From positions 1 through 64,000 of IMG/VR virus record IMGVR_UViG_3300025030_000070: a stretch of 64,000 bases of DNA. One strand, written 5' to 3'. Shown in pieces: positions 8,912 to 64,000 of the stretch. This DNA is from a virus. Below the pieces are notes generated by a model, which saw only the letters and a program-made list of their open reading frames with translations, ran no database searches and was not told the origin of the DNA. Both the position numbers and the translations under genes were made by a program. Positions within the stretch are counted from its first letter, which is position 1, and every line of letters starts with the position of its first letter.

Positions 8912-8923
8912 AACCAACACTTT

Positions 8924-8995: not shown

Positions 8996-9008
8996 TATTA
9001 TAAATTAT

Positions 9009-9082
9009 GTACCCTTGGCATGTCTGGAGATTGCGACAGTCTGTTAAACTGTACAAGAAAAGTTCGATTCTTTTAGGGTACG
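9009..9082 (+). tRNA. tRNA-Asn(GUU)
   Basis: Acceptor GTACCCT/AGGGTAC; anticodon stem ACAGT/ACTGT with loop CTGTTAA; T-arm AAAAG/CTTTT with loop TTCGATT; discriminator G. Confidence 0.9.
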
Positions 9083-37853: not shown

Positions 37854-39421
37854 AATACTAACAATTTCCGATCATCCGTCGACTGACAAGGTTTAGCGGA
37901 TGTAAAATCGGGTGAATTGCTGGAAAATTCTTAAAAACATTGTTCTACAGCGTAGTTGGAAACGACATGCGCGAAAGAAAAAAAATAATGTAATTGAACA
38001 ATCAGCAGCCAAGCTCCTGTCTGGAAACGGTGGAGAAGGTTCAGAGACTACGGTTAGCCTAAATTGCTATAGCAACATGGTAATGATCCGACAGCGCCCG
38101 ACATGTTTTTGTAACATGGTGATATAGTCCAATAATCGTAAGCCCGTCTGGGGTTGGATCGCAAACTAAATACATGTGTGAAGCACTCCTTAAAACAGGA
38201 AAATATCAGATTATTACTTTAGGTGGCGCATTAGTTCACAGTGATCGACGCATTGTTAAATTCCATGAATTTGGAGATGATTGGATCATTTATCCAGTTG
38301 ATGGGTATGCCAATCAAGAAATTGTTCGTTCAGTCGTTAGAAATCATAGACCTGATATTCTTTGGTTTATGACCGATCCAAGATTCTATATTTGGCTTTG
38401 GGAAATTGAACACGAAATACGTTCCTTGGTACCGATGGTTTATTACCACGTTTGGGATAATTACCCATATCCAAGCTTCAATAAAGTATTATATGATTCA
38501 ACAGATTTCATTGCTACCATTTCAAAACTTACATCAGACATTGTAAAGACTGTTTCTCCAAACGTAGAAGAAACATATTTTCCGCATTCTGTGAATACAT
38601 CCGTTTTTACTAAATTACCAGATGACAAAATCATTTCTTTAAGAAGAGAGAATTTTCCCAATGCTACAGATAAAATGTTGTTTTTCTGGAATAGCAGAAA
38701 TGCTAGAAGAAAGCAAAGTGGAACTCTTATTTGGTGGTTTAAAGAATTTTTAGACATTATAGGGCACGATAAAGCAATGCTGCTTATGCACACTGAGCCA
38801 AAAGATGAAAATGGACAAGATTTATATGCCATAATTAAAGAACTTGGTTTAGATAAAGAGCAAAGTGTTTTTATATCTAAAGATAAATTAACATCAGAAA
38901 ATATGGCAGGAATTTATAATATGGCGGATGCTACTCTATCAATTTCGGATGCAGAGGGTTTTGGACTTTCTGTTTTTGAAAGCCTTGCTTGTGAAACTCC
39001 AATTATAGTCAGTATGACAGGTGGTTTACAAGAACAAGTAATGGATATGACAAATATTCAAATGTCTTGTGAATTTGTCGAAAAAAGAAATAATGAGATA
39101 TCTGATAAAATAAAAATATGTGAACATGGAATTGGAATAATTCCGGCGTCAAGCGTTGTAATTGGATCACAAACAGTGCCATATATTTTTGAGGACAGAA
39201 TTTCAAAACCGGATTTTCTCAAGGCAATGGTTATGTTTTATAATATGACAAAAGAAGAACGCATATTGATGGGTAAAAAGGGAAGAGAACATGTTATCAA
39301 AAATTATAATTTTGAATCATTCAACAAGCGTTGGGATGAAGTTTTAACTCATGTTCACGAAAAGCATGGTAGTTGGGAAAATAGAAAATGTTACAGAGCG
39401 TGGGAATTGAGAACTTTATAA
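37837..39421 (+). CDS. Glycosyltransferase split by a group I intron (join 37837-37884, 38147-39421)
   Basis: Exon 1 starts at GTG 37837 and encodes TKKIKILTISDHPST. Exon 2 resumes in frame at 38147 with SGVGSQTKYMCEALLKTGKY. The joined N-terminus SDHPST-SGVGSQ fits the usual start of phage GT4-type enzymes. Later motifs include RPDILWFMTDPRFYIWLWEI, VYYHVWDNYPYPSF and SISDAEGFGLSVFESLACET, the donor-binding E-x-G loop. The spliced product is about 440 aa. Without splicing, translation stops soon after the exon 1 end. Confidence 0.85.
37885..38146 (+). ncRNA. Group I intron (262 nt)
   Basis: The 5' splice site follows T37884. GACT at the exon end pairs with GGTT, giving the T-G pair of P1, extended by ATCCG/CGGAT. 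P7 is GACTA (38046-38050) with TAGTC (38125-38129). The intron ends in G (38146). Core segments CAGCCAAGCTCC and AGACTACGG are typical. It has no ORF of its own; a homing endonuclease gene ends just upstream of exon 1's splice site. Confidence 0.85.
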
Positions 39422-39440
39422 AAAAGTGTAAGGGGTAAAT

Positions 39441-39761
39441 ATGGTGAAAAATATTATTTATAATTTATTGAAAACGATGGAGTATATGTTTTTTCTAATT
39501 GAGAGATTATTATATACTTTGCGACGCCGGGTGGAAAAAAAGTCAATTAAGTTTTCACCACATAATATTTGTTTTGATAATAAAGAATGTTTTAATAACA
39601 GTATAAAAAGTTTTTTTAAAAATTCACTTCGTGGACAAAAACTAAAAGAAGTCGCACTAAAAAAAAGATTATTATATCCTAGGCATATAGATAATGTATC
39701 TTTATCTTCGCGTGTATGCGATCCAAAAACTAATGAAATAAAAATTAAAAATATATTATAG
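39441..39761 (+). CDS. Hypothetical basic protein, 106 aa
   Basis: AAGGGG lies upstream of the ATG. The N-terminus has an amphipathic, partly hydrophobic helix (YNLLKTMEYMFFLIERLLYT); the rest is basic. It sits between two glycosyltransferase genes; no function can be given. Confidence 0.5.
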   Translation: MVKNIIYNLLKTMEYMFFLIERLLYTLRRRVEKKSIKFSPHNICFDNKECFNNSIKSFFKNSLRGQKLKEVALKKRLLYPRHIDNVSLSSRVCDPKTNEIKIKNIL

Positions 39762-39769
39762 GAAGCACA

Positions 39770-42280
39770 ATGACTAAAAAAATCATAATGAGGGGACCTT
39801 TTTTGAGCCAAAGCGGTTATGGTGTTCAGAGTCGTTTTGCTCTTTCCGCTCTTCGAAAGTTTCCAGAACGATTTGACATATATCTCATTAATACCCCTTG
39901 GGGTAGAACAAGTTGGACATGGGAAGATACAGAAGAGCGCCGCTGGATTGATCAAATTCTTCAAAAAACTCTTGTTTATCAACAACAAGGTGGACAGTTT
40001 GATATATCATTACAAGTTTGTATCCCAAATGAGTGGAAAAAAATGGCTCCAATTAATATTGGATATACTGCTGGAATTGAAACAACTAAAATTTCACCTC
40101 AATGGTTTCAGGGATGTTTCAATGTAAACAAAATTCTATTAACATCTAATCATTCTAAATTTGGTTTTACCAATGCGCAGTTTCCAGCGACAGATAATGT
40201 TACAGGAAGACAATTTGTTGCCAAACTTGAGATGCCAATGGAAGTTGTTCCTTATCCGGTTAGAATTGTAGAACCAAAACCAATTAATGTTGATTTTAAG
40301 TATGATTTTAATTTTCTAACTGTAGCTCAATGGGGACCACGAAAGAATGTTGAAAATACAATTAAATGGTTCGTTGAAGAGTTTATGAATAAAGAAGTTG
40401 GATTAATATTGAAAGTCAATTCCGTTAATCAATCATTAATGGATAGAGAAATGACTCAAAATAGAGTTAATGATGTTTTATCTCAATTTAATGGAAAAGA
40501 ACGAAAATGTGCTATACATCTTTTACATGGAGATTTAAGAGAGGAAGAAATGACTTTTCTTTATAGACATCCAAAAATTAAAGCTTTCATTAGTTTAACG
40601 CACGGAGAAGGTTTCTGCGGATTGGACTATACTCCAATTATTACAGACAAAGGACTTAAGAAATTGATCGATATTAAATCTGGAGATTTAGTATTGACTC
40701 ATAGAAATCGATATCGAAAAGTTATAACTCCTATGTCTCGTGAATATTCTGGCGAGATGATTAAAATTGTTCCATATTGTGCAGTACCTATGGAACCAAT
40801 TGTTTTAACGCCGAATCACAATGTTTACATTTATGATAATAAAAATAAAGAATTCTTGTGGAAAAGAAGCGATGAATTAAAACAAAATGACTATTTGGTT
40901 TTGCCAAAAATGTCAAAAAAAGAAAATATCATTAACAATATTGATATATTTGAACACGTAAAAAATGAAAAAAATTTAGTACTAAACGATGAAGATATTT
41001 TTTATATGCATTCAAATAAACTTGGCCTAAAAATAAAAAATAATATCAATATTGATAAAAAATTTGGTAGATTGTGTGGATGGTTTTTAGCCGAAGGATG
41101 TGTATCTGATGATAGAATTATTGCTTTTTCTCTTCATGATAAAGAAATTGATTCTTTTGGAAAAGAAATTATCAATTGCATGAAAGATATATTCGGGATA
41201 GAACATTTTAGGATAGAAAAAAGAAAAAATAAAAAATGTTCTGTTATTGTATTTCACAATAAAATTGTGGCTTTATTTTTCAAATCTTTATTGGGAAATA
41301 AATCAAAAAATAAAGTTATTAGTGATTGCGTTTTCTCGTTTCCTAATGAATTTAAAGAGGGAATGATTACTGCTTTATTTGAAGGAGATGGATATATTAA
41401 TACTAAAAATTACAAGAATCCATCTATAGAGGTACAACTTGTCAATAAAACATTATTGAGACAAATTAGAATATTATTATTAGAACAAGGAATATTATGT
41501 TCCTATAAAATGTGCACCCGAGAAGGAATTATTAAAGAAAAATGGAATTACAAGAGTGAAATTCATTCGTTAGTTATTGGAAAAAAAGAAAGTATTAATA
41601 AATTTGTAACCATGTTAAATAAACATACTTCTAATACTGTAATATACGACACACTGCAGTTGGCAGATTCGTTTAATGAAAAACAATCTGGAAGAACTAA
41701 AGAAAAAGAAGATTGTTTTTTGCTGAGAATAAAAAATATTACTAAATTTCAGCACGCTGGTAAAGTATTCAACCTTTCTGTTGAAGAAGACGAAACTTAT
41801 TGTACTGAAAATTTTATGGTGCACAACTGTCTTCCAATGTTTGAATCAGCATATAATGGATTGCCGATAGTTGCCCCCGCATGGAGTGGACAAAATGATT
41901 TTATTTATATGCCAATAAAAGATAAGAAAAAGAATAAAATCAAAAATACATGTATGATTTCTAACGTAGCGTACGATATTAAAAATGTTCAACCAGAAGC
42001 AGTTTGGGATGGAATAATTATTCCTGATGCACAATGGTGCTTTCCTAGAGAAATTGATGCTAAACAACAAATGAGGGAAGTTTACAAAAATTATGGTTCT
42101 TGTAAATCGCGAGCAAACAAACTTCAAGAATATGTGTTAGACAAATTTGATTCCGATAAGATGTTGACACATTTCGCCGATTGTGTAGATGAATATTATC
42201 CAATTGTAGATATTGCGGATTTTCTGAAAGAAGAAAAAGAAGTTAATCCCTTATTGAAAGAAGTTATTGCGTATGATTAA
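39770..42280 (+). CDS. Glycosyltransferase (GT4-like) interrupted by an intein
   Basis: 836 aa precursor, about 432 aa after splicing. The N-terminus IIMRGPFLSQSGYGVQSRFA resembles the preceding enzyme's start. VAQWGPRKNVENTIKWF and ISLTHGEGF-CLPMFESAYNG are the central and donor-binding motifs; the intein splits the latter. The C-terminal part continues with IVAPAWSGQNDFI. It probably transfers a sugar in capsular, O-antigen-like or virion glycan synthesis. Confidence 0.88.
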   Translation: MTKKIIMRGPFLSQSGYGVQSRFALSALRKFPERFDIYLINTPWGRTSWTWEDTEERRWIDQILQKTLVYQQQGGQFDISLQVCIPNEWKKMAPINIGYTAGIETTKISPQWFQGCFNVNKILLTSNHSKFGFTNAQFPATDNVTGRQFVAKLEMPMEVVPYPVRIVEPKPINVDFKYDFNFLTVAQWGPRKNVENTIKWFVEEFMNKEVGLILKVNSVNQSLMDREMTQNRVNDVLSQFNGKERKCAIHLLHGDLREEEMTFLYRHPKIKAFISLTHGEGFCGLDYTPIITDKGLKKLIDIKSGDLVLTHRNRYRKVITPMSREYSGEMIKIVPYCAVPMEPIVLTPNHNVYIYDNKNKEFLWKRSDELKQNDYLVLPKMSKKENIINNIDIFEHVKNEKNLVLNDEDIFYMHSNKLGLKIKNNINIDKKFGRLCGWFLAEGCVSDDRIIAFSLHDKEIDSFGKEIINCMKDIFGIEHFRIEKRKNKKCSVIVFHNKIVALFFKSLLGNKSKNKVISDCVFSFPNEFKEGMITALFEGDGYINTKNYKNPSIEVQLVNKTLLRQIRILLLEQGILCSYKMCTREGIIKEKWNYKSEIHSLVIGKKESINKFVTMLNKHTSNTVIYDTLQLADSFNEKQSGRTKEKEDCFLLRIKNITKFQHAGKVFNLSVEEDETYCTENFMVHNCLPMFESAYNGLPIVAPAWSGQNDFIYMPIKDKKKNKIKNTCMISNVAYDIKNVQPEAVWDGIIIPDAQWCFPREIDAKQQMREVYKNYGSCKSRANKLQEYVLDKFDSDKMLTHFADCVDEYYPIVDIADFLKEEKEVNPLLKEVIAYD
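40616..41827 (+). mobile_element. Class 1 intein with LAGLIDADG endonuclease
   Basis: 404 aa. It starts with Cys (CGLDYTPIITDKGLKKL), has the block B-like IVLTPNHNVY, and ends ENFMVHN before a Cys, as canonical class 1 inteins do. LCGWFLAEGCVS and ITALFEGDGYIN are the two LAGLIDADG motifs. It interrupts the conserved HGEGF[C]LPMFES donor-site motif. Confidence 0.9.
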
Positions 42281-43937
42281 TACTAAAAAAGTTGTTTATG
42301 TTGCTGACTATTTTGCTAATGAAATCTGTGGCGGTGCCGAGTTGTGCGCAGAAGAACAAATAAAGTCTCTGCAGAAACGTGGATTCGAATTAGAAAAACT
42401 TAAAAGTGTTGAATGTACTTCTAACTTGCTAAAAGACAATAAAGATTGTTTTTGGATAATATCAAATTTTATGCTATTACCAGAAGATAGTAAACAAACA
42501 CTGATTAATGAAAAAATAAATTATTTGATAGTTGAAAATGATTGGAAGGCATTCAAATCAAATAACCCAGCATTATTTCCAAATCTTGTTGTTCCTGAAG
42601 ATCAAATACAGAATAAACAATTTTTTAAATCAGCGAAAGCAGTTTTTTGTCAAAGCAAGATGCATGCTGAAATAATGGAGAAAAATCTTCTTCTCAAAAA
42701 TATTGTCAATATTGGATGTAATATATGGTCTGATGAAGCAGTTGAAGTCCTTCGCAACAATATTGGAAAAAAGAAGAATAGAAAAGTTGGTATTATCCAA
42801 TCCAATAATAAAAATAAAGGCATGCCCGAAGCAATACAATATTGTAAAAAGAATAAAATAAATTATGAATTAATTCCATTTTGTGATCAAGATAGATTTT
42901 TTGATGAACTTGCCAAAACAGAAACGTTGGTGTTTTTTCCTACATGGATTGAAACATTTTGTAGGGTCGCGATTGAAGCTAGAATTCTAGGTTGTAAATT
43001 AATAACAAACAAAGCTTTAGGATGCGCATCAGAAGATTTTTTCAAATTAAAGGGCGAAGAGTTATTAGAATATATTGCCGGAAGAAAAGAAAAAACAATT
43101 GATTTGTTTGAGAAAGTAATCAAAGATAAAGAAGTGGAAAAATTTAATTCAGTAAAACTTCCCAAAGTTTCAGTTATTACGACAATCTATAAAGCAAAGG
43201 AACATATTAAAGGTTTTATGGATTCGTTTGTAGCACAAACAATATCAGACGATTCTGAATTAATCATTATCGATGCCAATTCTCCAGATGATGAAGTCTC
43301 AATAATTTCGAAATATATACAAGTGCATACAGACAATATTAAATATATTAGAAAAAACACCCAAATAACTCCAATGGAAGCATTTAATGAAGCAACGAAA
43401 CTTGCGTCCGGGGAATTTATAGCATGTGTGTTGGCTGATGATAGGATGGCGAACGATCATTTAGAAACACTAGCAAAACACTTAATGTTGAATCCAGAAA
43501 TCGATTTGGTATATGGGGATTGTCTTCAAACGACAAAACCTAATGAAACAGTTGAACAAAATTCTTCAAAAGGAAGATTGTATGAACACTCTCGAATGGA
43601 TTTTTCCAGAGAAAATATGATCAAATGTCTTCCCGGACCCCTACCTCTATATCGTAAATCTATTCACGATAAAGCGGGACTATGGGATGAAAAACTCAAA
43701 CACGCTGGAGATTGGGAGTTATGGTTGCGAGCTGTTAGAGCTGGTTCTCTTTTTAAGAAGGTTAATAAAATATTGGGACTTTATTATTATAATCCAGACG
43801 GATTAAGCACAAGTTCCGATCCAGACAAAATGCTTCGTCGAAGGCGCGAAGAACGTGATGTTTTCCATGAATTTAAAGATGTTATAGGAGAGTCAAATTA
43901 TAATACCTTTAAAGAATACTTTGACAGTGTTGAATAA
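42273..43937 (+). CDS. Two-domain glycosyltransferase (GT4-like plus GT2), 554 aa
   Basis: ATG 42273 overlaps the previous stop. The N-terminal part (VYVADYFANEICGGAELCAE ... VFFPTWIETFCRVAIEAR) resembles a GT4 enzyme. From about residue 300, KVSVITTIYKAKEHIKGFMD, CVLADDRM (DxD-like) and AGDWELWLRAV form a GT2 domain. One polypeptide could add two sugars in a row. Confidence 0.8.
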   Translation: MINTKKVVYVADYFANEICGGAELCAEEQIKSLQKRGFELEKLKSVECTSNLLKDNKDCFWIISNFMLLPEDSKQTLINEKINYLIVENDWKAFKSNNPALFPNLVVPEDQIQNKQFFKSAKAVFCQSKMHAEIMEKNLLLKNIVNIGCNIWSDEAVEVLRNNIGKKKNRKVGIIQSNNKNKGMPEAIQYCKKNKINYELIPFCDQDRFFDELAKTETLVFFPTWIETFCRVAIEARILGCKLITNKALGCASEDFFKLKGEELLEYIAGRKEKTIDLFEKVIKDKEVEKFNSVKLPKVSVITTIYKAKEHIKGFMDSFVAQTISDDSELIIIDANSPDDEVSIISKYIQVHTDNIKYIRKNTQITPMEAFNEATKLASGEFIACVLADDRMANDHLETLAKHLMLNPEIDLVYGDCLQTTKPNETVEQNSSKGRLYEHSRMDFSRENMIKCLPGPLPLYRKSIHDKAGLWDEKLKHAGDWELWLRAVRAGSLFKKVNKILGLYYYNPDGLSTSSDPDKMLRRRREERDVFHEFKDVIGESNYNTFKEYFDSVE

Positions 43938-44437: not shown

Positions 44438-45382
44438 ATGAGATATCTTATATCCGGAGCAGCGGGATATATTGGTTCTAATCTAGTTGGCAAAATTTTA
44501 GAACAGGACTATCCATTCGGTGAAGTTACAGCACTAGACTCACTTCTTTACGATAAAACTTCTCTTCTTCAGTACGCAAATGATGATAGATTCAATTTTG
44601 TTAAAGGTGATGTACGAGATAAAGAGTTGCTTGGTTTTTTATTAAAAAATCATGATGTTATTATTTCTCTCGCTGCTTTAGTCGGCGCTCCATTATGTGA
44701 TAAACGTCCACAAGAAGCGTGGGACATTCATCACGGAGCTAATGAATTCCTTGCCAATAACAAATCAAAAGATCAATTACTTTTGGTTCCAAATTCGAAT
44801 TCTGGTTATGGAACTACTGATGGGACTTCAACGATAACAGAAAAAGATCCACTTAATCCGATATCTGTTTATGGAAAATCAAAATGCGCTGGCGAAGAAG
44901 CAATTCGGCAAGTCGAGAACCATTGTTCGATGAGACTTGCTACAGTGTTTGGTCCATCGTCAAGGATGCGAACTGATTTGCTTGTGAACAATCTTGTGTT
45001 AAAGGCAATGAGAGAAAAAGTTCTTATTGTATATGAAGGCTCATACATGCGTAATTATATACATATTGATGATGCGTGTAATGCTTTTATATTCGCCATA
45101 AATAATTGGGATAAGTGTAAAAATGAAGTATTTAACGTTGGAAATGATAAACTCAATATGAGTAAACTTCAGCTTTGTCAAAAAATTTCTGAACATATTC
45201 CATTGGAAATTATTGAAGCACAAATAACAAAGGATCCTGATTGTCGGAATTATATTATTAGTAGTCAAAAATTCTATGATAAAGGATTTAGTTGCCGTAC
45301 TGATCTAGATGAAGGCATTATACAACTCAAAACTGTGTACGAAATGTTAAATGATGATTTTATAATCTATGCCAACTATTGA
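44438..45382 (+). CDS. NAD-dependent epimerase/dehydratase (SDR)
   Basis: 314 aa. LISGAAGYIGSNLVGKI is the GxxGxxG nucleotide site; VYGKSKCAGEEA is the YxxxK catalytic pair; YIHIDDAC is typical of nucleotide-sugar SDRs. It probably modifies a sugar nucleotide for the nearby glycosyltransferases. The end overlaps the flavoprotein gene. Confidence 0.85.
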   Translation: MRYLISGAAGYIGSNLVGKILEQDYPFGEVTALDSLLYDKTSLLQYANDDRFNFVKGDVRDKELLGFLLKNHDVIISLAALVGAPLCDKRPQEAWDIHHGANEFLANNKSKDQLLLVPNSNSGYGTTDGTSTITEKDPLNPISVYGKSKCAGEEAIRQVENHCSMRLATVFGPSSRMRTDLLVNNLVLKAMREKVLIVYEGSYMRNYIHIDDACNAFIFAINNWDKCKNEVFNVGNDKLNMSKLQLCQKISEHIPLEIIEAQITKDPDCRNYIISSQKFYDKGFSCRTDLDEGIIQLKTVYEMLNDDFIIYANY

Positions 45383-46448
45383 TGCCGAAATTATTGTTAT
45401 TGGTGCTGGAGTAATTGGTCTTGCTATAGCTGAACGCTTATCTCGTTCTGGGAAACAAGTAATCATTGTTGAAAAAGAAAACAGTTTTGGTCAACATACT
45501 TCAAGTAGAAATAGTGAAGTAATTCATTCTGGTATTTATTACCAAGCAAATAGTCTAAAATCAAAATTGTGTATTGAAGGCAATAAAATGCTTTATGATT
45601 TTGCTCATGAGCACAATATTCATCATAAGAAATGCGGAAAATTTATCATATGCCAAAAAGGAGAGGAAGGTTATTTAATTGATATCCTTTCCAACGGAAA
45701 GAGAAATGGCATTGAAGGGTTAACAATAGCGAAAGATAATATTCCTGATACTATAAAGTATAATACCGCTGTATGGGTGCCGTCTACTGGCATAATCGAC
45801 TCTCATGCTTTAATGTATGAATTGAATAGACAGATAGGACAGAGAAACAACGTATATGTTGGATTCGGATGTAATGTTCGGAGCATTCAATACGATCGCT
45901 ATGAAGGTGGCACTTTTCGAGTTGGAATAGATGATTTTCATTTAACATCTAAAATTCTAATTAATTGTGCTGGGCTCTGGGCAGATAAAATAGCAAATTT
46001 GCTTTTTCCAAACCAATATAGATTGGAATTCTGGAAAGGCGATTATTATAAAACAAATAAAATTAAAAATCTTAATCATTTAATTTATCCATTGCCTCGT
46101 TTTGATAGTTTGGGAATACATACTCGAATTAATTTAGATGGTTCTGTTTCTTTTGGACCAAACGCTTATAGAGTATACGATGTTGATTACAATATTGATG
46201 AAAGATTTAAAGAAAGTTTTCTTTCATCTATCAATGAATATATTGAATTAGGCGATGAAGATATATTTCCTGATTATAGTGGAATTCGTCCAAGACTTTC
46301 TGGTAATGAGGGCAATAAAAAAGATTTTATAATCAAGAATGAAATTGACAATGGTTTCCGCAATATGATAAACTTGATTGGAATAGAATCACCTGGGCTT
46401 ACTTGCTGTTTATCGATAGCAAAATACGTTGAAGGAATAATAGTATAA
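45369..46448 (+). CDS. FAD-dependent oxidoreductase, LhgO-like
   Basis: 359 aa. IIVIGAGVIGLAIAERLSRS is the FAD dinucleotide site, VIIVEKE the ribose-binding acid, SRNSEVIHSGIYY and NLIGIESPGLTCCLSIAKYV match L-2-hydroxyglutarate oxidase and related DAO-family enzymes. It is unusual in a phage and may oxidise a sugar or hydroxy-acid in this cluster. Substrate unknown. Confidence 0.82.
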   Translation: MPTIDAEIIVIGAGVIGLAIAERLSRSGKQVIIVEKENSFGQHTSSRNSEVIHSGIYYQANSLKSKLCIEGNKMLYDFAHEHNIHHKKCGKFIICQKGEEGYLIDILSNGKRNGIEGLTIAKDNIPDTIKYNTAVWVPSTGIIDSHALMYELNRQIGQRNNVYVGFGCNVRSIQYDRYEGGTFRVGIDDFHLTSKILINCAGLWADKIANLLFPNQYRLEFWKGDYYKTNKIKNLNHLIYPLPRFDSLGIHTRINLDGSVSFGPNAYRVYDVDYNIDERFKESFLSSINEYIELGDEDIFPDYSGIRPRLSGNEGNKKDFIIKNEIDNGFRNMINLIGIESPGLTCCLSIAKYVEGIIV

Positions 46449-47215: not shown

Positions 47216-47261
47216 TTTGAGCTATAGTGAAAAAATAATAGGTGGAGAAGAAAGAAGAAAA

Positions 47262-48671: not shown

Positions 48672-48763
48672 TAAAGAATGTATGTCTGAAACAGAAGACA
48701 GAGCACTACTAGAAATACAGTTTCTAGAATAGTAAGAAATATAACATGGAAGGAAAATCAAAG

Positions 48764-50284
48764 ATGAGTAAAAATTTAGACATACTTTTTGTGCACAGTA
48801 ATAGTTTGGAAATCAATTATCAAGAACTTGCTAATGAACATAGCGCAATAGAGCCTAATATTTGGGCTGGTATGTTAGCAAACAGTTGCAAAAGTAAAGG
48901 TTTTTCTTCACAAATATTAGATTGCGAAGCAGAACATTTAACAACTAACAATTCTGCAAAAGAAATTGTTTCTAGAAATTCCCGTTTAATTTGCTTTGTT
49001 GTTTTTGGTGCCAATCCTAATGCTTCTACTCAATCAATGGAAGGAAATATTGCAACTGCAAAAAAAGTCAAAGAGCTTAATCCTAATTCAAAAATTATTT
49101 TTGTAGGTCCACATGTTTCAGCCGTTCCTAGGGAAACTCTTAATGAAGGTTGCGTTGATATTGTGTGCACGAATGAAGGTGTTTATGCTCTTCATAATTT
49201 ATTGAAATGCAATGTTGACGATAATCACGATCTTCTAAAAATAAAAGGTATTGGTTTTAAAACAAAAGAAGGATTATCAATAATAAACGAACCAGAAAGA
49301 ATTGTTCCAAAAGATTTTCTCGCGAGAGATTTGCCAGGAATTGCTTGGGATTTAATGCCAAATATTAAATATTTTAAAACCTCAGGCTGGCACAGTTGGT
49401 CAAATAACACAATAAAAACTCCATTTGCATCTCTTTATACTTCTCTTGGTTGCCCATATAAATGTAGCTATTGTATGATAAATATTCTGAATAGGACTGA
49501 CAATGCACTTCATATTTCAGCCGCTGATAGCAATATTTTTCGCTATTGGGATCCAGAGTTCATTATTAAACAGTTTGATATTATCGCGCAAATGGGCGTA
49601 AAGAATGTTAAAATAGCAGATGAACTTTTTGTCTATAATCCAAAGCACTTTCTGAAAATATGTGATTTGATAATAGAGCGAAAATATGACTTCAATATTT
49701 GGTGTTATTCTAGGGTTGATACTTGCAAGCCTGAATATCTTGATAGAATGAAAAAAGCAGGAATAAACTGGTTAGGAATAGGCGTTGAGAATCCAAATCA
49801 AGTTCTCCGTAAAGAAGTTCATAAGGGAGGATTCAAAGAAGTAAAAATAGATAACTTATTTAGTATGATGAGAAATGCCGGAATAAATATAGGAGCAAAC
49901 TACATTTTTGGACTTCCAAAAGACACAAAAGAAAGTATCCAAAATACTGTTGAGTTTATGATGAATAATCTAACAGAGTTTATGAATATCTATTCGGCAA
50001 TGGCACTTCCTGGAAGTCCATTATATTTAGAAGCAAGAAAAAATAAAGTTATATTGCCTGATCGGTATGCTGGTTATTCACAACATTCATATTACACTCA
50101 AAATCTTCCAACTGATACATTATCAGCAGCAGAAATTCTGCAAGCCCGTGATGATTGTTGGACTAGATATTTTACAAATTCTGTTTACCTTCAAATGATG
50201 GAAAAGAAGTTTGGGAAAGTTTGCACCGACAACATTAAAGCATCAACACAGATAAAACTAAAAAGGCGTTTGCTTGGAGATTAA
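48764..50284 (+). CDS. B12-binding radical SAM enzyme, 506 aa
   Basis: ATG 48764 has AAGGA at suitable spacing. The N-terminal part (LILFVHSN-type start, IIFVGPHVSAVPRETLNEG) fits a cobalamin-binding domain. SLGCPYKCSYCMINI near residue 233 is the CxxxCxxC cluster motif, and WLGIGVENPNQVLRK is the SAM-binding strand. Such enzymes perform methylations or carbon-skeleton steps; in this cluster a role in sugar modification is likely. Confidence 0.87.
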   Translation: MSKNLDILFVHSNSLEINYQELANEHSAIEPNIWAGMLANSCKSKGFSSQILDCEAEHLTTNNSAKEIVSRNSRLICFVVFGANPNASTQSMEGNIATAKKVKELNPNSKIIFVGPHVSAVPRETLNEGCVDIVCTNEGVYALHNLLKCNVDDNHDLLKIKGIGFKTKEGLSIINEPERIVPKDFLARDLPGIAWDLMPNIKYFKTSGWHSWSNNTIKTPFASLYTSLGCPYKCSYCMINILNRTDNALHISAADSNIFRYWDPEFIIKQFDIIAQMGVKNVKIADELFVYNPKHFLKICDLIIERKYDFNIWCYSRVDTCKPEYLDRMKKAGINWLGIGVENPNQVLRKEVHKGGFKEVKIDNLFSMMRNAGINIGANYIFGLPKDTKESIQNTVEFMMNNLTEFMNIYSAMALPGSPLYLEARKNKVILPDRYAGYSQHSYYTQNLPTDTLSAAEILQARDDCWTRYFTNSVYLQMMEKKFGKVCTDNIKASTQIKLKRRLLGD

Positions 50285-50938
50285 ATGAAAAACTTAATGA
50301 CAGCCGAACAGTTAATTGCTTTTGAAGAAGACATAGCTCAATGTTTCAATAACAAAATGATTAGAGCGCCCATACATCTTCAGTCAAATAATTTTGAGAT
50401 ATTGATAAAGATGTTTGAAGAAATAAACGAAGAAGATTGGGTTTGTGGAACTTGGCGTTTTCATGCAGAAACGCTATTGAAAGGTGTTCCACCTGAAAAA
50501 GCAAAACAAGATATTCTTGACGGACGGTCAATCGAGTTGTGTAATAAAGAGCATAAAGTTTTTACATCTGCCATAGTAGCAGGCATTTTTCCTATTGCGC
50601 TAGGAATAGCGTTAGATATAAAAAGAAGGGGTGATAATAATAAAGTTTATTGTTTCGCAGGAGAAATGTCTGCTACTTGTGGTGGGTTTTATGAAGCATA
50701 TACTTATGCGAAAAATCATTTTTTGCCTATTGTATTTGTGATAAGCGACAATGGTAAAAGTGTTTGCACTGACACCAGGGAGGTATGGAATACTCACAAA
50801 CTTCCATTCGAACCAGATGAAATAAATCAAGGAATGATAGAAGAAAATGAGTTTTACAAGAGCAAATATTTGTGGTATTATAAATATCGCTTGGATTATC
50901 CTCACGCCGGCCCGGGCGGAAAAAGGATACAATTTTAG
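50285..50938 (+). CDS. TPP-dependent E1 alpha-like subunit, 217 aa
   Basis: Begins one base after the previous stop. GTWRFHAETLLKGVPPEKAK, CNKEHKVFTSAIVAGIFPIA and VYCFAGEMSATCGGFYEAY with FVISDN correspond to the alpha part of 2-oxoacid dehydrogenase E1 enzymes; the GDG of the TPP site reads GEM here. It is shorter than cellular E1 alpha. The beta-like subunit follows at 51743, separated by an HNH gene. Confidence 0.72.
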   Translation: MKNLMTAEQLIAFEEDIAQCFNNKMIRAPIHLQSNNFEILIKMFEEINEEDWVCGTWRFHAETLLKGVPPEKAKQDILDGRSIELCNKEHKVFTSAIVAGIFPIALGIALDIKRRGDNNKVYCFAGEMSATCGGFYEAYTYAKNHFLPIVFVISDNGKSVCTDTREVWNTHKLPFEPDEINQGMIEENEFYKSKYLWYYKYRLDYPHAGPGGKRIQF

Positions 50939-50940
50939 TT

Positions 50941-51750
50941 ATGAAGAAATGTAGTAAATGTGGTCTTGAAAAAGAGTTGAGTGAGTTTAGTAATAATAAA
51001 AACAATAAAGACAATAAGCATGCATGGTGTAAAAATTGTAATAAACGATATAAAAAACAATTCTTTATAAATAACAAAGAAACTATTTTGGAAAAATATA
51101 AACAATATTATTTATATAATAAAGAAAATATTTTAGAACAGAAAAAACAATATTATTTATATAATAAAGAAAATATTTTGGAAAAATATAAACAATATTA
51201 TTTATATAATAAAGAAAATATTTTAGAACAGAAAAAACAATATTATTTATATAATAAAGAAAATATTTTGGAAAAATGTAAACAATATCGAAAAAATAAT
51301 ATAGAAAAAATATTGAAACGAGATAGGAAACGAGATAGACAATATCGCCAATCTCCAAAAGCAAAAGAACTAAGAAAGAAAAAGTTCAAACAACGCATCA
51401 AAAATGATCCATGCTTTAGATGTCATCGTGTTATTTCTTCCTCGATTCGCAAAACCCTCAAATCTCAAGGTGGCATCAAAAATGCTCCCATTTTTTCTAA
51501 ACTACCTTATACGCCAGAAGAGTTAGTAAAACACATAGAAAGTTTATGGGAACCGTGGATGAACTGGGACAACCATGGTAGACTTTCTTTCACTAAACAA
51601 ACTTGGCAAATAGATCACATAATACCTCAAAGCAAGTTGCCTTATGATTCAATGGAACATGAAAACTTTTTGAAATGTTGGACACTTGAAAACCTCCGAC
51701 CATTAGAATCAATAGAAAACATAAGAAAGGGAGATAAAATAGATGGGTAA
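50941..51750 (+). CDS. HNH endonuclease with 15-residue repeats
   Basis: 269 aa. KKCSKCGLEKELSEFSNN and HAWCKNCNKRYKK form an N-terminal zinc region. Then come four 15-residue repeats of the type KQYYLYNKENILExx. The C-terminal part (KQTWQIDHIIPQSKLPYDSM, LENLRPLESIEN) is the HNH site. It sits exactly between the two E1 subunit genes and overlaps the second by 8 bases, which points to insertion as a free-standing mobile gene. Confidence 0.85.
   Translation: MKKCSKCGLEKELSEFSNNKNNKDNKHAWCKNCNKRYKKQFFINNKETILEKYKQYYLYNKENILEQKKQYYLYNKENILEKYKQYYLYNKENILEQKKQYYLYNKENILEKCKQYRKNNIEKILKRDRKRDRQYRQSPKAKELRKKKFKQRIKNDPCFRCHRVISSSIRKTLKSQGGIKNAPIFSKLPYTPEELVKHIESLWEPWMNWDNHGRLSFTKQTWQIDHIIPQSKLPYDSMEHENFLKCWTLENLRPLESIENIRKGDKIDG
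51103..51282 (+). repeat. Four tandem 45-bp repeats inside the HNH gene
   Basis: Units begin at 51103, 51148, 51193 and 51238 with the same CAATATTATTTATATAATAA start; alternate units end differently, so the higher-order period is 90 bp. They encode a helical spacer. Confidence 0.85.
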
Positions 51751-52282
51751 GTACTTTGAAGAAATGAAAAAAACAATGACTTGGCTCGGTGAGCAGCAAG
51801 ACACTTTCTTTCTAGGACAATCAGTAGGAAAAGAAGGAACAGCAATGTTTGCGACATTGAAAGATGTTCCATTGTCTAAACGACTTGAAATGCCTGTTAT
51901 TGAGAACACGCAACTTGGAATGTCAATTGGGATGGCAATCAACGGAACTATACCAATTTCCATTTTTCCTCGATGGAATTTTTTGATTTGTGCTTCCGAT
52001 CAACTGGTCAACCATCTGGATAAAATCAAACAATATTCGCATGATGAATTTATTCCAAAAGTCATAATCCGAGTTGGTGTGGGTTCCGAACGTCCGCTTC
52101 ATCCACAAGCGCAACATGTTGGCAATTTTTCATCAGCATTTAGAGAAATGCTTACCAATATAGAAATTATAGAATTAAATGAACCAAAAGATATTTTTCC
52201 TGCCTACAAACATGCTTATGAAAGAACAGATGGAAAATCAACAATTTTAGTTGAATTTGGGGACTATTATAATGAAAAATAA
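51743..52282 (+). CDS. TPP-dependent E1 beta-like subunit, 179 aa
   Basis: LEMPVIENTQLGMSIGMAIN, GTIPISIFPRWNFLICASDQ and LVNHLDKIKQYS follow the beta subunit of 2-oxoacid dehydrogenase E1 enzymes, including the catalytic Glu region. The C-terminal domain is short. With the alpha-like gene it could transfer a two- or three-carbon unit to a sugar (inference). Confidence 0.72.
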   Translation: MGKYFEEMKKTMTWLGEQQDTFFLGQSVGKEGTAMFATLKDVPLSKRLEMPVIENTQLGMSIGMAINGTIPISIFPRWNFLICASDQLVNHLDKIKQYSHDEFIPKVIIRVGVGSERPLHPQAQHVGNFSSAFREMLTNIEIIELNEPKDIFPAYKHAYERTDGKSTILVEFGDYYNEK

Positions 52283-58035: not shown

Positions 58036-59042
58036 ATAAGACGACGGTACTGGTAACTGGTGGCCAAGGCTTCATCGGAAGTGCGGTTTGCCAAGAGTTT
58101 CTTGATAATGATTATCATGTCATATCTATAGATAATTATTCAAAATATGGTTACATCGAAAGGCCACACGATAATCATCCAAATTTTCAATTGATTAAAG
58201 AAGATGCTAAAAAATTAAACGAGTGGTGTACGTGCGATAATGTTGAAGTTTTTAGTGGTCTACATAAAGTAGATTACATTGTTCACTGCGCAGCTTCCAT
58301 AGGTGGCATATCTTTTTTTCATGCAAATGCATTTGATTTGCTAGCTGAAAATATGAGACTAGATGCTTCCGTGTTTGATTGTGCTATAGATTTATTTCAA
58401 AACCATCAACTTAAAAGAATTGTAGCGTTAGCTAGTTCAATGATTATGGATATGACAGATACATTTCCAACATCTGAGTCGGATATACCTAACATACCAC
58501 CTCCACCTTCTTCATATGGATTTTCCAAATTAGGAACAATGTATTTTGCGAAAGCAGCTTGTGAACAATATAAATTGCCATATACTATTATAAATCCTTG
58601 GAATGCGTGCGGGATTGGAGAGGAAGATTTTCGCAAAGGAGAAAGTTCACATGTCATTCCAGATTTAATAATGAAAACTTTATCTGGACAAAAACCGTTA
58701 AAGATATTGGGTGATGGAAATCAAATAAGAACTTTTACGTCTGTACGAGATATTGCTAAAGGTATTAGACTTTCATTAGAAAGCAATCTTGCTGAGAATG
58801 AAATTTTTAATATCGCAAATCCAAATCCAATAAAGATAAAAGAATTAGCAGAAATTATTTGGAACAAATTACGACCCAATGAAGCATTTGAATTCAAAAT
58901 GGAGCAACCATTCAAGTATGATACTCTTCGAAGAGAGCCCGACGTATCAAAGGCAAAAGAATTGCTTGGGTTTGAAGCTAAAATAACACTCGACGAAAGC
59001 ATCGACGAAGTAATAGAATATATTGGGAGTTGCAATGTCTAA
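58032..59042 (+). CDS. UDP-glucose 4-epimerase-like SDR, 336 aa
   Basis: VLVTGGQGFIGSAVCQEFLD is the GxxGxxG site; YIVHCAASIGG, then LASSMIMDM and SSYGFSKLGTMYFAKAA (YxxxK) are the catalytic parts; IRTFTSVRDIAKGI and the ending DVSKAKELLGFEAKITLDES are typical of extended SDRs. Confidence 0.87.
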   Translation: MNKTTVLVTGGQGFIGSAVCQEFLDNDYHVISIDNYSKYGYIERPHDNHPNFQLIKEDAKKLNEWCTCDNVEVFSGLHKVDYIVHCAASIGGISFFHANAFDLLAENMRLDASVFDCAIDLFQNHQLKRIVALASSMIMDMTDTFPTSESDIPNIPPPPSSYGFSKLGTMYFAKAACEQYKLPYTIINPWNACGIGEEDFRKGESSHVIPDLIMKTLSGQKPLKILGDGNQIRTFTSVRDIAKGIRLSLESNLAENEIFNIANPNPIKIKELAEIIWNKLRPNEAFEFKMEQPFKYDTLRREPDVSKAKELLGFEAKITLDESIDEVIEYIGSCNV

Positions 59043-59808
59043 ACCAGAAATATCGATAGTCCTTCCAGGCATTCGTCAACAAAATTGGGATGCCGTATAT
59101 GATTCAATTGTTGCTTCTACAAAAAAAACTTTTGAATTAATCATATGTGGTCCATTTCCTCTTACTCCACAATTAGAAGTTATTAATTGTGTTAAATATG
59201 TCAAAGATTATGGTTCTCCTGTGAGAGCTTCTCAAATTGCTGCTTCTATGTGTGAAGGAGAATTAGTGACTTGGATTGCCGATGATGGAATTCTCCTTCC
59301 AGATTCATTAGATAAAAATATAGATCTACTTCGTTCTATGGGAGACAATAATAAAAATGTTGTTGTGACAAAATATTATGAAGGAAAAAATGGTACAGAG
59401 AAGCCTCTTCAACCAGATAATTATTTCAAATTAAACGGATCAGATTGGACTTCATCGCCATTTATTTCAAAAGAGTGGTGGCTCTTTAATGTTGCTATAA
59501 TACATCGGACTTTTTTCGAAGAACTTGGAGGATGGGATTCCTTGTATGAAGGAACTTTTTACTCACACGCTGACATGGCAGTTCGGGCTCAATATCTAGG
59601 CGCCAATGTCAAGATGTCTGATTTTCCTTTGCTAAATTGTGATCATGAGCAACTTGATCATGCTCCGATCGAATCTGCTCAAATTATACACGATAAGCCT
59701 TTATTTCAATCTCGATATAGAAATCCTTCGTGGACCATGGGAGAAATGAGACTGGACATTAATAATTGGAAAGATTCATCAGCAGTATGGAAAAGGAGGT
59801 TTGGATGA
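59035..59808 (+). CDS. GT2-like glycosyltransferase, 257 aa (copy B)
   Basis: ATG 59035 has GGGAG upstream. SIVLPGIRQQNWDAVYDSIV, ICGPFPLTPQL and YGSPVRASQIAASMCEGELV match copies A and C; WIADDGILLP gives the DD. FFEELGGWDSLYEG, INNWKDSSAVWKRRFG at the end. Confidence 0.78.
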   Translation: MSKPEISIVLPGIRQQNWDAVYDSIVASTKKTFELIICGPFPLTPQLEVINCVKYVKDYGSPVRASQIAASMCEGELVTWIADDGILLPDSLDKNIDLLRSMGDNNKNVVVTKYYEGKNGTEKPLQPDNYFKLNGSDWTSSPFISKEWWLFNVAIIHRTFFEELGGWDSLYEGTFYSHADMAVRAQYLGANVKMSDFPLLNCDHEQLDHAPIESAQIIHDKPLFQSRYRNPSWTMGEMRLDINNWKDSSAVWKRRFG

Positions 59809-60122
59809 ATTCTAATAAGATTAAAAATATGGATATTAAAGAATTTCTTGAATTTGGTTTCCTTCAAGAAGCCAATCGTCTCTTCTTTCATCCATTGGGA
59901 CTTGCTTTAGAAGTAGCGATAAATGATGATGGTTCATACGAACTAGGTCGCATATTGGATTATAGAGATGAACCTGAAGGCATTGCTTTTGGTAATGTCA
60001 CTGCAGAAAAATTTCAAGAGAGAATTGATAAGAAAAATAGAGTTGAACAATTGGCTTTTGAAAAAGGAATTTCTCGTAAACAACTTTTAGGATATGTTAT
60101 CCAGAATTTGGAGATTAAATGA
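59805..60122 (+). CDS. Conserved-type protein, 105 aa
   Basis: ATG 59805 is preceded by AAAAGGAGG inside the previous gene. EFGFLQEANRLFFHPLGLAL and RDEPEGIAFGNV are familiar from small proteins in phages and bacteria, without known activity. Overlaps the next gene by ATGA. Confidence 0.65.
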   Translation: MNSNKIKNMDIKEFLEFGFLQEANRLFFHPLGLALEVAINDDGSYELGRILDYRDEPEGIAFGNVTAEKFQERIDKKNRVEQLAFEKGISRKQLLGYVIQNLEIK

Positions 60123-60877
60123 AATTTGATATTTCCGTGATTATACCTTCTATTCGAGTCCAAAATTTATTGAAAATTCAATTCATGCTCGACCGAGCAA
60201 TTGAGCCATATTCTCACGAGATAATTGTTGTCAGTCCATATGATGTTCCAATTGATGGAGTTAAAGTAATAAGAGATTTTGGATCTCCATCTAGATGCGT
60301 GCAAATGGGAAGTTGTCTAGCGGAGGGAAAACTTTTAATGTGGTTATCGGACGACTGCACATTTATAACTCCTCGATCTTTAGCTCAATGTATTCAATTA
60401 TTTGAAAGCGGACAAGCAACAGAAAAAGATGGAATAACATTACGTTATTTTGAAGGAGAAGGCAATGGAGAGTTTCCTTTAGATTATTGGAGAGGGAAAC
60501 ATCATGGTGATATGCAGAAATTAGCTGGTATCCCAGATGACTATAAAATAGCTCCACTAGGAATGTATAATACAAATTATTTTAGAGAATTGGGTGGTTT
60601 AGATTGCCGGTTTCTCCACATAAATATGAATACACACGATCTTTCGTTTAGAATTCAGAATAATGGTGGTAAAATAATTCTATCGCATCAATCGTGTGCT
60701 AATTTTTACTGGTCTTGGGTAACAACGGACGCTAAACCTATACAAAGAGCATATTTTGAAAATGATAAAAAACTTTTTGAAGAAATATGGGACAAAGATC
60801 AAACACAGAGAATAAAAATCGATTATTATAATTGGACAGATGCTGAAAGCAAATGGAATATGCGTTTTGGGCGATAG
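60119..60877 (+). CDS. GT2-like glycosyltransferase, 252 aa (copy C)
   Basis: ISVIIPSIRVQNLLKIQFML, FGSPSRCVQMGSCLAEGKLL, WLSDDCTFITP, FRELGGLDCRFLHINMNTHD and NWTDAESKWNMRFG follow the same plan as copies A and B. It probably adds a further sugar to the same glycan. Confidence 0.78.
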   Translation: MKFDISVIIPSIRVQNLLKIQFMLDRAIEPYSHEIIVVSPYDVPIDGVKVIRDFGSPSRCVQMGSCLAEGKLLMWLSDDCTFITPRSLAQCIQLFESGQATEKDGITLRYFEGEGNGEFPLDYWRGKHHGDMQKLAGIPDDYKIAPLGMYNTNYFRELGGLDCRFLHINMNTHDLSFRIQNNGGKIILSHQSCANFYWSWVTTDAKPIQRAYFENDKKLFEEIWDKDQTQRIKIDYYNWTDAESKWNMRFGR

Positions 60878-61061: not shown

Positions 61062-62030
61062 ATGGATAAACCATGTCGCGCGCTTGTTACGGGGGGGGAC
61101 GGTCTTGTAGGTAATGCCATTAAAACTATTTCCTTTGACCATCCTGAATTAGATTTCATATTTGTTGGACGCAAGAATGCCGATTTGACAAAGGAGTCAG
61201 AAGTAGAAAGACTTTTTAGACTGTATAAGCCTGAATACATAATTCATTGCGCTGCTAGAGTTGGAGGGATCGGAAGGAATCTAAATAGCCCAGTACAGCA
61301 ATTTAATGATAATATTTTGATGAATACAAACATCATCAAACAAGCACACTTACATAAAATTGAAAAATTAATTGCCTTTTCGTCTGTATGTGTTTTTCCT
61401 TCTAATACAGAAGTTTTAAGAGAAAACAATATGCACGATGGTCCTCCATTTCCTGCTCACTGGAGCTATGCTATGGCAAAGCGCATGGTTGATGTGCAGA
61501 TTGGAGCATATCGAGATCAATACGATGTAAACTATTGCTCAATTATTCCTACTAACATTTTTGGGATTAAAGACAATTATGATTTAGAAGACGGACATGT
61601 TGTTCCTTCTCTCATCCATAAGTTTTATAATGCTCTTGCGACAGAAACCAATATTGAATGTTGGGGCGATGGCAGTCCAAAAAGAGAATTTATTTATGCT
61701 CAAGATTTAGCAAAAGTTTGTGTTGAGTTGTTGAAAAAGAATGAACTAATGCCTCAAAGATTGATTGTTCCTGGTCAAGAATTTTCTATTAAAGAAATTG
61801 TCGAAAAGATTGATTTGTCTTTTTTGAGTGTTTATTCACAACTAGGTACGAGTTATCCCGATATTGTTTGGAACAAAGATAAACCAAATGGACAAATGCG
61901 CAGAAAAACAGAGTCGCAATATTTTGATAAACTGTTTCCCAATTTTAAATACACAGGCATTGATGTAGCATTGAAAGAAAGTGTGAAATGGTTTACGACG
62001 AATTATCCAAACTGTAGGGGTGTGAAATGA
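61062..62030 (+). CDS. GDP-L-fucose synthase / GDP-colitose synthase-like SDR, 322 aa
   Basis: ALVTGGDGLVGNAIKTI, DLTKESEVERLFRLYKPEYI, AARVGGIGRNLNSPVQQFND and SSVCVFPSNT match GDP-fucose synthase (Fcl/WcaG). HWSYAMAKRMVDVQ gives YxxxK. Next to gmd it would complete GDP-fucose. With the ColD-like gene downstream, its close relative GDP-colitose synthase (ColC) is equally possible. A run of eight G lies in the cofactor-site codons. Confidence 0.85.
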   Translation: MDKPCRALVTGGDGLVGNAIKTISFDHPELDFIFVGRKNADLTKESEVERLFRLYKPEYIIHCAARVGGIGRNLNSPVQQFNDNILMNTNIIKQAHLHKIEKLIAFSSVCVFPSNTEVLRENNMHDGPPFPAHWSYAMAKRMVDVQIGAYRDQYDVNYCSIIPTNIFGIKDNYDLEDGHVVPSLIHKFYNALATETNIECWGDGSPKREFIYAQDLAKVCVELLKKNELMPQRLIVPGQEFSIKEIVEKIDLSFLSVYSQLGTSYPDIVWNKDKPNGQMRRKTESQYFDKLFPNFKYTGIDVALKESVKWFTTNYPNCRGVK

Positions 62031-63007
62031 AAATTGCTGCAATTAGCGGTATTACTGGGCAGATTGGAAGTTATCTAGCAGAACTCTTATTAGATAAGGG
62101 ATATTATGTTGTTGGATTAAAAAGAAGAACTTCTACAATCAATTCTACAACCAGAATAAATCATATTCTATTAAGTCCAAATTTGAAATTGGAGTATTTT
62201 GATTTTAACGATCCAATTTCAATTGTAAATATTTTTACAAAATATAAAATAGATGAATTCTATAATTTGGGATGTATGAGCCATGTTAGAGTTTCTTTTG
62301 ACATGCCCGAAGAAGCATTTAATACAGTTGCTATAGGGACTCTTAGGATACTTGAATGTATTCATAGGTTGAGTCCAGAAACAAAGTTATATCAAGCTTC
62401 TTCTAGTGAGCAGTTTGGATTTAATCCTGATGTTCCATTTAATGAATTGTCTAGATTTATGCCTGCTAGTCCGTATGCTTGCTCAAAAGTAGCAGCGCAC
62501 AATCTAGTTGTAAATTATCGTAATGCTTATAATCTGCACACGAGTTGTGGAATAGTTTTTAACACCGAGTCTAGTCGACGCGGAGAAAACTTCGTTACTA
62601 GAAAAATAACATTAGGTGCGGCAAGAATAAAAGCTGGAATACAAAAAGAATTAGTTTTAGGTAATCTAAAATCATTTAGAGATTGGAGTTATGCTCCTGA
62701 AATTTGTGAAGGAATATGGAAAATTCTTCAACAAAAACATCCAGGCGATTACGTACTGTGTTCAGAAGAAATGCATTCTGTTGAAGAATTTTTAAAAGAA
62801 ACATTTGAATATGCCGGTTTGGGTAATTATGAAAAATGTGTTCGTATAGATCCAATCTATTATAGAGCGCAAGAAGTTCCAATGTTACTAGGTGATTGTT
62901 CGAAAGCCAAAGCAGTTCTCAAATTCGAATCGAAAACGAAATTTAAACAGCTTGTTAAAATAATGTACGATGCTGATGAAGAATTGGTGAAAAACGAAAG
63001 GAAATAG
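62027..63007 (+). CDS. gmd: GDP-mannose 4,6-dehydratase
   Basis: 326 aa. AISGITGQIGSYLAELLLDK, GLKRRTST, LEYFDFNDP, CMSHVRVSFDMPEE, YQASSSEQFG, SPYACSKVAAHNLVVNYR and ESSRRGENFVTRKI correspond to Gmd. The enzyme makes GDP-4-keto-6-deoxymannose, the branch point for GDP-fucose, GDP-perosamine and GDP-colitose. It shares ATGA with the preceding gene. Confidence 0.92.
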   Translation: MKIAAISGITGQIGSYLAELLLDKGYYVVGLKRRTSTINSTTRINHILLSPNLKLEYFDFNDPISIVNIFTKYKIDEFYNLGCMSHVRVSFDMPEEAFNTVAIGTLRILECIHRLSPETKLYQASSSEQFGFNPDVPFNELSRFMPASPYACSKVAAHNLVVNYRNAYNLHTSCGIVFNTESSRRGENFVTRKITLGAARIKAGIQKELVLGNLKSFRDWSYAPEICEGIWKILQQKHPGDYVLCSEEMHSVEEFLKETFEYAGLGNYEKCVRIDPIYYRAQEVPMLLGDCSKAKAVLKFESKTKFKQLVKIMYDADEELVKNERK

Positions 63008-63008
63008 A

Positions 63009-64000
63009 ATGATAGATATTAAATTTCCACTTGCTAAAGATACGTTTGATCGATCAGATATTGAGGCATTGTGTGAATGGATGCTACAAAATCCAACACC
63101 AAAACTTACAATGGGTGAGTTGACAAAGGAATTTGAAAAGAAGATTGCTGAATGGGTTGGAAGAAAATATGCTGTTCTTTGTAATAGTGGTTCATCTGCA
63201 AATTTATTAGCAATATACGCTTTGAAAATAATTGGAAAATTAAAAAACAATAAATGTGTCGTTCCATCTGTTGCGTGGGCAACTTCAATTGCTCCATTTA
63301 TAAATTTTGGATTTGATAAACCCATAATGGTTGGAGCGGATAAAAATAACTTTGGGATGGATTTGGATGAATTAGAAATTATATGTGAAAGAGAAAATCC
63401 TGCGGTAGTATTGTTTGTTCAGCCGCTCGGGGTTTTATGTGATAAAAATCGATTACTTCAACTTAAAAATAAATATGGTTTTTATTTGATTGAGGATGGG
63501 TGTGCGGCAGTAACATCACATTATGTCGATGGCACAAAATCAGGTGCAGTAGGTGATATATCTACATGGAGTTTATTTTTTGGGCATCAAGTTTCGACAG
63601 TTCCTCCGGAGGGTGGAGTTGTTTTTACTGATGATAAAGAAATTTATAATCACCTATTGATGTTACGTTCTCATGGATTTATAAGAGATTTAGATGATGA
63701 TTCAAAAAAAGAAATGGTGGAAAAATATAATATTTCGAAGATTTATGAACAGTTTTCTTTCATTGTTCCAGGCATGAATCTTCGTCCTACCGATTTAATG
63801 GCATTTGTTGGTTTAAGACAAATTTCGAAATTGGACAGCATAGGAAAGAAAAGACACGAAAATCATATTTTTTATAAAAAACAATTTGAAGGAAGTTCTA
63901 TGTTTCAAGTTCAAGAAGTGGAACAAAATAATGTCGCTTCTATATCATTTGCTGTTCTTGCTAGTTCGGAAGAACACAGAAAAATTATTGTAAGAAATTT
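63009..64000 (+). CDS. ColD/E1-like PLP-dependent 3-dehydratase (partial)
   Basis: The frame is open to the window end (330 codons). KFPLAKDTFDRSDIEAL, LTMGELTKEFEKKIAEWVGR, LCNSGSSANLLAIYALK and LIEDGCAAVTSHY are sugar-aminotransferase-fold motifs. At the PLP Lys position the sequence reads SLFFGHQVSTVPPEGGVVF: His instead of Lys. That change defines GDP-4-keto-6-deoxymannose 3-dehydratase (ColD) and the CDP-sugar E1 enzymes, which remove the 3-OH instead of adding an amine. Placed next to gmd it fits ColD best. Confidence 0.85.
   Translation, partial: MIDIKFPLAKDTFDRSDIEALCEWMLQNPTPKLTMGELTKEFEKKIAEWVGRKYAVLCNSGSSANLLAIYALKIIGKLKNNKCVVPSVAWATSIAPFINFGFDKPIMVGADKNNFGMDLDELEIICERENPAVVLFVQPLGVLCDKNRLLQLKNKYGFYLIEDGCAAVTSHYVDGTKSGAVGDISTWSLFFGHQVSTVPPEGGVVFTDDKEIYNHLLMLRSHGFIRDLDDDSKKEMVEKYNISKIYEQFSFIVPGMNLRPTDLMAFVGLRQISKLDSIGKKRHENHIFYKKQFEGSSMFQVQEVEQNNVASISFAVLASSEEHRKIIVRN

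Follow-up and report, generated by a model that had tools for sequence, protein, structure and literature searches.

We analysed a 64,000-nucleotide stretch of DNA (the window), bases 1–64,000 of record G000 of an uncultured phage (87.8 kb), and in particular a gene that starts at position 63009 on its plus strand. By family, the encoded protein is a genuine ColD-type nucleotide-sugar 3-dehydratase dependent on pyridoxamine 5'-phosphate (PMP). On balance, we favour a C4-oxidised nucleotide-heptose as its likeliest substrate, not (or not only) the product of the neighbouring GDP-mannose 4,6-dehydratase (Gmd), which would supply GDP-fucose together with the adjacent GDP-fucose-synthase-like protein (Fcl). 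The original prediction had joined these three neighbours in a phage pathway to a colitose-type GDP-3,6-dideoxyhexose. A phage-borne gene of the ColD-type 3-dehydratase family, and with it a 3-deoxy nucleotide-sugar pathway, was borne out; the colitose-type product was only partly supported.

The ColD-like open reading frame (63009..64000 in the window, continuing to 64211 in G000, where its end was read just past the window) was complete and encoded 400 amino acids. The protein matched PF01041 (DegT/DnrJ/EryC1/StrS, fold type I) with 195 bits. Its best match among PDB sequences by phmmer was E. coli ColD, 2gms (E 2.4e-47, 165 bits), followed by the RfbH-type protein 3bcx (107.6 bits). An AlphaFold model (pLDDT 91) had 2gms as its top Foldseek match. 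As predicted, a histidine, His193, replaced the lysine that binds pyridoxal 5'-phosphate (PLP) in aminotransferases, and it aligned with His188 of ColD. Of the 167 sequences aligned, 166 had histidine at this site and one, a phage DegT aminotransferase, had lysine; the window protein did not group with ordinary aminotransferases. A DegT sugar aminotransferase was ruled out because the PLP-binding lysine is missing, and an RfbH/DdhC (E1) [2Fe-2S] 3-dehydratase because the protein lacks the Cys segment, for which the Cys-rich insert of an RfbH-like protein of phage RB11-B served as the reference. The RB11-B protein itself (Synechococcus phage; L008, 5827–7122), a 3-dehydratase with the Cys-rich segment, represents another kind of 3-deoxysugar enzyme in phages. 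With ColD of E. coli O55 (2gms), the window protein shared the fold, the histidine in place of the PLP lysine and all invariant active-site residues. It differed in being only ~30% identical, in belonging to a separate clade, in the genomic partners of its relatives and in two extra prolines in an active-site loop (VSTVPPEGG), an insertion seen in no other of ~165 relatives. A sequencing artefact in this gene was ruled out, as the reading frame was intact and identical in G001. The latter record (201 kb) carries the same region reversed, with 9 mismatches to G000 over 87,829 positions, none before 78209; the whole cluster is identical in both, and G001 may not be an independent assembly.

At least 567 viral contigs encoded relatives of the ColD-like protein. 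A query of bacterial genomes with the single sequence gave no matches, but an alignment query did reach bacterial relatives. The window protein grouped with 9–10 phage loci and with proteins ~50% identical to it from bacterial and archaeal metagenome-assembled genomes. In a 62-row IQ-TREE phylogeny, the smallest starred sets holding it comprised 8 phage rows (SH-aLRT 98) and 18 rows (SH-aLRT 99). It belonged neither to the classical ColD clade nor to the viral clade associated with gmd, but to one characterised by Cj1427-like and thiamine enzymes, a placement that weighs against a colitose-type product.

The genomic partners differed between the clades. A gmd gene stood beside colD in 22 of 24 classical ColD loci and in none of 11 bacterial members of the window's clade, whereas a Cj1427-like gene stood there in 10 of these 11 and in none of the 24 classical loci. 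Over whole genomes, a strong Cj1427-family match was found in 14 of 15 genomes of the window's clade vs. 0 of 20 with classical ColD (Fisher 6.5e-9). Matches of the heptose-7-phosphate-kinase type, all below the curated cut-off, were present in 15/15 genomes of the window's clade, and a true gmd was absent genome-wide from 8 of the 15, including two genomes labelled as cultured strains, those behind L149 and L171. Recurrent partners were the Cj1427-like dehydrogenase, a thiamine enzyme of two subunits and a B12-radical-SAM protein, joined in the bacteria by an HddA-type heptose kinase and an HddC-type nucleotidyltransferase, and in the phage clade by an HldE-like kinase, a nucleotidyltransferase and an HAD phosphatase. 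As the best Cj1427-like match among annotated phage records was only 32% identical, and thus not a close relative, the cassette was studied in metagenomic viruses. Among 80 viral Cj1427-like loci, 58 contained the thiamine enzyme, 30 the radical SAM gene, 26 a ColD-like gene (all with histidine), 23 HddA and 2 gmd. The thiamine enzyme occupied the same slot in three different architectures. In 11 records, some of them close copies of each other, the genes were arranged as radical SAM–thiamine pair–HddA–ColD-like–Cj1427-like.

The window phage has every recurrent partner of this cassette but HddA, over positions 44438–65717; the original prediction had missed these partners, some of which are located 11–19 kb upstream and others a short way past the end of the window. 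The first of them (44438..45382; plus strand, like the oxidase, radical SAM, thiamine-enzyme, Fcl-like, Gmd and glycosyltransferase genes below) encodes a short-chain dehydrogenase/reductase of the Cj1427 (GDP-heptose C4-dehydrogenase) type. Its best PDB match by phmmer was 6vo6/6vo8 (233 bits; next match, 78 bits), and 6vo6 is presumably C. jejuni Cj1427. Identity was 41% to the 6vo6 chain over its length and 41–57% to phage and bacterial relatives. The following gene, which overlaps it by 14 bases, encodes an FAD-dependent L-2-hydroxyglutarate oxidase-like protein (45369..46448; NCBIfam match 206.8 bits, E 4.7e-61, curated cut-off 299). Further phages, and one bacterium, likewise have such an oxidase gene directly beside the Cj1427-like gene. 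Two phage homologues (L209, 7837–8466; G009, 8389–9033) consist of the C-terminal half alone and still abut the Cj1427-like gene. Cj1427 oxidises GDP-heptose at C4 while reducing 2-oxoglutarate, with release of L-2-hydroxyglutarate; combined with a ColD homologue in vitro, it gave GDP-3-deoxy-heptoses (PMC10680097). An oxidase beside the C4-dehydrogenase would fit recycling of the co-substrate, and its adjacency is circumstantial support for a dehydrogenase activity dependent on 2-oxoglutarate. Between the oxidase and radical SAM genes, a HesB/IscA-type Fe-S assembly protein is encoded at 47217–47615.

The B12-binding radical SAM protein (48746..50284; Pfam Radical_SAM and B12-binding) contains the CxxxCxxC motif, and its gene is a recurrent neighbour of ColD-like and Cj1427-like genes. 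Next to it lies the gene for the alpha-type subunit of a two-subunit thiamine-diphosphate enzyme of the E1/transketolase type (50285..50938; Pfam E1_dh), with the cofactor motif GEM...SDN (GDM...EDN in relatives). The beta-type subunit with the pyrimidine-binding domain (51743..52282) was recognised through its homologue in L115 (61% identical), which matches Pfam Transket_pyr, and through phrog_34187, the C-terminal half of which matches this protein and the N-terminal half the alpha subunit. An open reading frame between the two subunit genes (50941–51750) had no Pfam match and contained tandem YYLYNKENILE repeats; it appeared HNH-like by eye. Beyond the window and downstream of the ColD-like gene, G000 encodes an HldE-like kinase (64213–64968), an HldE-like nucleotidyltransferase (64961–65395) and an EcbF/BcbF-type HAD phosphatase (65370–65717). 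A UDP-glucose-dehydrogenase-like protein without the C-terminal domain is encoded at 56696–57514, and related phages have homologues of it next to the same genes.

The sequences themselves establish which families the proteins belong to, that their motifs are intact, which clade is concerned and which partners are conserved. We infer all of the substrates, the order in which the steps occur, the nucleotide, and which sugar results and where it goes. The phage kinase, phosphatase and nucleotidyltransferase would activate a heptose. The Cj1427-like dehydrogenase would then oxidise its C4 using 2-oxoglutarate, which the L-2-hydroxyglutarate oxidase would regenerate, and the ColD-like enzyme would remove the C3 hydroxyl with glutamate and PMP. 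Completion of the sugar might fall to an Fcl-like reductase, to the two-subunit thiamine enzyme or to both, and the putative glycosyltransferases would transfer it onto a host surface polysaccharide or virion proteins. Gmd and Fcl would probably form a second unit, separable from the first, that makes GDP-fucose.

Several observations weigh against a heptose substrate. The best families of the kinase and the nucleotidyltransferase were rfaE_dom_I (117.7 bits; cut-off 345) and rfaE_dom_II (88.7 bits; cut-off 181.5), both matches falling below the curated cut-offs. Both proteins are HldE-like (beta anomer, ADP) and not of the HddA/HddC type (alpha anomer, GDP), and no SIS-type GmhA was found on the phage records. 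The heptose-type assignments lean partly on family names. The abutting or overlapping fcl, gmd and colD genes suggest joint expression and a possible role with a hexose in this phage, which was the only one among 137 dereplicated loci to have gmd together with a Cj1427-like gene (loci found through the Cj1427-like query were left out of this count, being biased towards that gene). The window protein forms the longest branch of its phage clade; with the insertion near the active site, this means that its specificity may have shifted. Finally, a C. jejuni heptose 3-dehydratase is 62–67% identical to colitose ColD (PMC10440746), so that the substrate cannot be read from the clade alone and the argument for a heptose rests on the partners.

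An attractive extension of the heptose pathway, which does not exclude it, is that the C4 ketone left by the dehydrogenase and the 3-dehydratase receives two carbons from the thiamine enzyme, giving a C4-branched 3-deoxy sugar. The frequency of the thiamine enzyme in the viral Cj1427-like loci and its three architectures in one slot point this way. Precedents are the proposed two-carbon branching by AviB1/AviB2 (PMC4753412), and YerE with the proposed split-gene transketolases (PMC12247030). AviB1/AviB2 and YerE are thiamine enzymes for two-carbon branching of a 4-keto deoxy-sugar, and they are compared here with the phage enzyme by function. However, the thiamine enzyme could instead feed sedoheptulose-7-phosphate or serve another step, and action of split transketolases on keto sugars has not been demonstrated in vitro (PMC12247030). 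We put branching forward tentatively. Still more speculative is the proposal of an undescribed cassette common to phages and diverse uncultured bacteria. It would combine a C4-dehydrogenase and the recycling of 2-hydroxyglutarate with a ColD-type 3-dehydratase, a thiamine enzyme of two subunits and a B12-radical SAM protein, and would build a C4-branched 3-deoxy-heptose, a sugar of nine carbons.

A colitose-type GDP-3,6-dideoxyhexose made by the triad itself seems less likely to us, despite a favourable gene arrangement. The Fcl-like epimerase/reductase (61062..62030, 322 amino acids), Gmd (62027..63007, 326 amino acids) and ColD-like genes overlap or abut over 61062–64211, side by side and intact as originally described, and in the right combination for colitose. 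Gmd is of the GDP-mannose type: it matched TIGR01472 with 348.6 bits (cut-off 415), its best PDB match was GDP-mannose 4,6-dehydratase 1n7g (307 bits), with GDP-heptose 4,6-dehydratase 7us5 at just 97 bits, and it retained the SSSE and YxxxK motifs. The dehydratase beside the ColD-like gene of L106, unlike that of the window, was nearest to 7us5. The Fcl-like protein had human GDP-fucose synthase as its best PDB match (226 bits) and retained the catalytic motifs SxC (Ser/Cys), YxxxK (Tyr/Lys) and GHV (His). Either Fcl or a Cj1428/ColC-type C4-reductase would fit; the sequence does not separate an Fcl acting as ColC from an ordinary one. His-type triads also lie side by side in two cyanophage isolates, ACG-2014f and S-CAM7, as well as at many further viral loci, and L024/G004, the only other phage in the clade of the window protein with a true gmd adjacent, has the same order as the window phage (FCL-GMD-COLD-KIN-NT-HAD). 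Against colitose stand the position of the window protein in neither gmd-associated clade and its relatives in genomes devoid of any true gmd. Most phages of the clade also had no gmd on their records, which is weak evidence, as the records are fragments. The triad as such is already present in isolated phages, and what sets that of the window phage apart is the kind of ColD-like protein it includes. That this protein is inactive or repurposed, as its unique insertion and long branch might indicate, is improbable given the intact reading frame, the histidine, the full set of invariant residues and the high-confidence fold.

The proposed heptose pathway resembles several known systems in part. 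The PLP-dependent C3-dehydratase of C. jejuni HS:5/HS:11, which serves GDP-3,6-dideoxy-heptoses (PMC10440746), performs ColD-type chemistry on a 4-keto heptose, and its gene lies beside heptose kinase and guanylyltransferase genes, as in the bacterial relatives of the window protein. In contrast, it is close in sequence to classical ColD and comes after a 4,6-dehydratase, whereas the partner in the window phage is a C4-dehydrogenase. Cj1427 of C. jejuni works with an epimerase and a reductase, not naturally with a 3-dehydratase, and its phage homologue is paired with L-2-hydroxyglutarate oxidase. In the literature that we found, unbranched GDP-3-deoxy-heptoses came only from enzymes mixed in vitro. 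ACG-2014f and S-CAM7, like the window phage, carry the His-type triad along with glycosyltransferases near tail fibre genes. Their ColD proteins belong to another clade, and neither a Cj1427-like gene nor a thiamine enzyme or radical SAM protein was annotated in the stretches compared. Pelagimyophages, also large myoviruses, have a similar load of host-surface genes, with rfaE, UDP-glucose dehydrogenase, glycosyltransferases and radical SAM cassettes; unlike for the window phage, no pathway with a 3-dehydratase and a C4-dehydrogenase is described in the parts of that source used here (PMC7029224). Our search of the literature on phage heptose or nucleotide-sugar pathways yielded nothing on the window's cassette.

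Seven putative glycosyltransferase genes were found upstream of the triad, in line with the six or more originally predicted. Four of them encode a CgeB-like protein (52506–53465; Pfam Glyco_trans_1_2) and GT2-like proteins at 53458–54255, 59023–59808 and 60119–60877, the first and last of which are 37% and 28% identical, respectively, to their paralogue at 59023. The AF2 model of the 59023 protein had a GT-A fold (pLDDT 88), and its top Foldseek matches were K4 chondroitin polymerase and the WrtF fucosyltransferase. The remaining three genes start at 38174, 39770 and 42267 (within 38174..43937). Pfam matches to Glycos_transf_1 and Glycos_transf_2 were obtained for 38174 and 42267; gene 39770–42280 is split by a LAGLIDADG intein, its Pfam matches are to the intein alone, and its glycosyltransferase nature was judged by eye.

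The phage has T4-type baseplate genes, which were nearest to those of Flavobacterium and Microcystis phages (~30%). The window also encodes an RtcB-type tRNA ligase (4919–6154), an IS605 OrfB/TnpB-like protein with a Cas12f1-like TNB domain (20403–21599) and a PhoH-like protein interrupted by an intein with a LAGLIDADG domain (32354–34948).

His-type relatives of ColD are usually taken to indicate colitose synthesis, but here the neighbours conserved across viruses and bacteria suggest chemistry on heptoses instead. They define concrete enzymes that can be tested for a role in making 3-deoxy heptoses, perhaps branched ones, and they offer a possible natural context for the action of split-gene thiamine enzymes on keto sugars, an activity unproven in vitro. 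If this is true, phages carry multi-step pathways for sugars which their hosts may lack, and such sugars could matter for changes of receptor, the exclusion of superinfecting phages or the glycosylation of virions.

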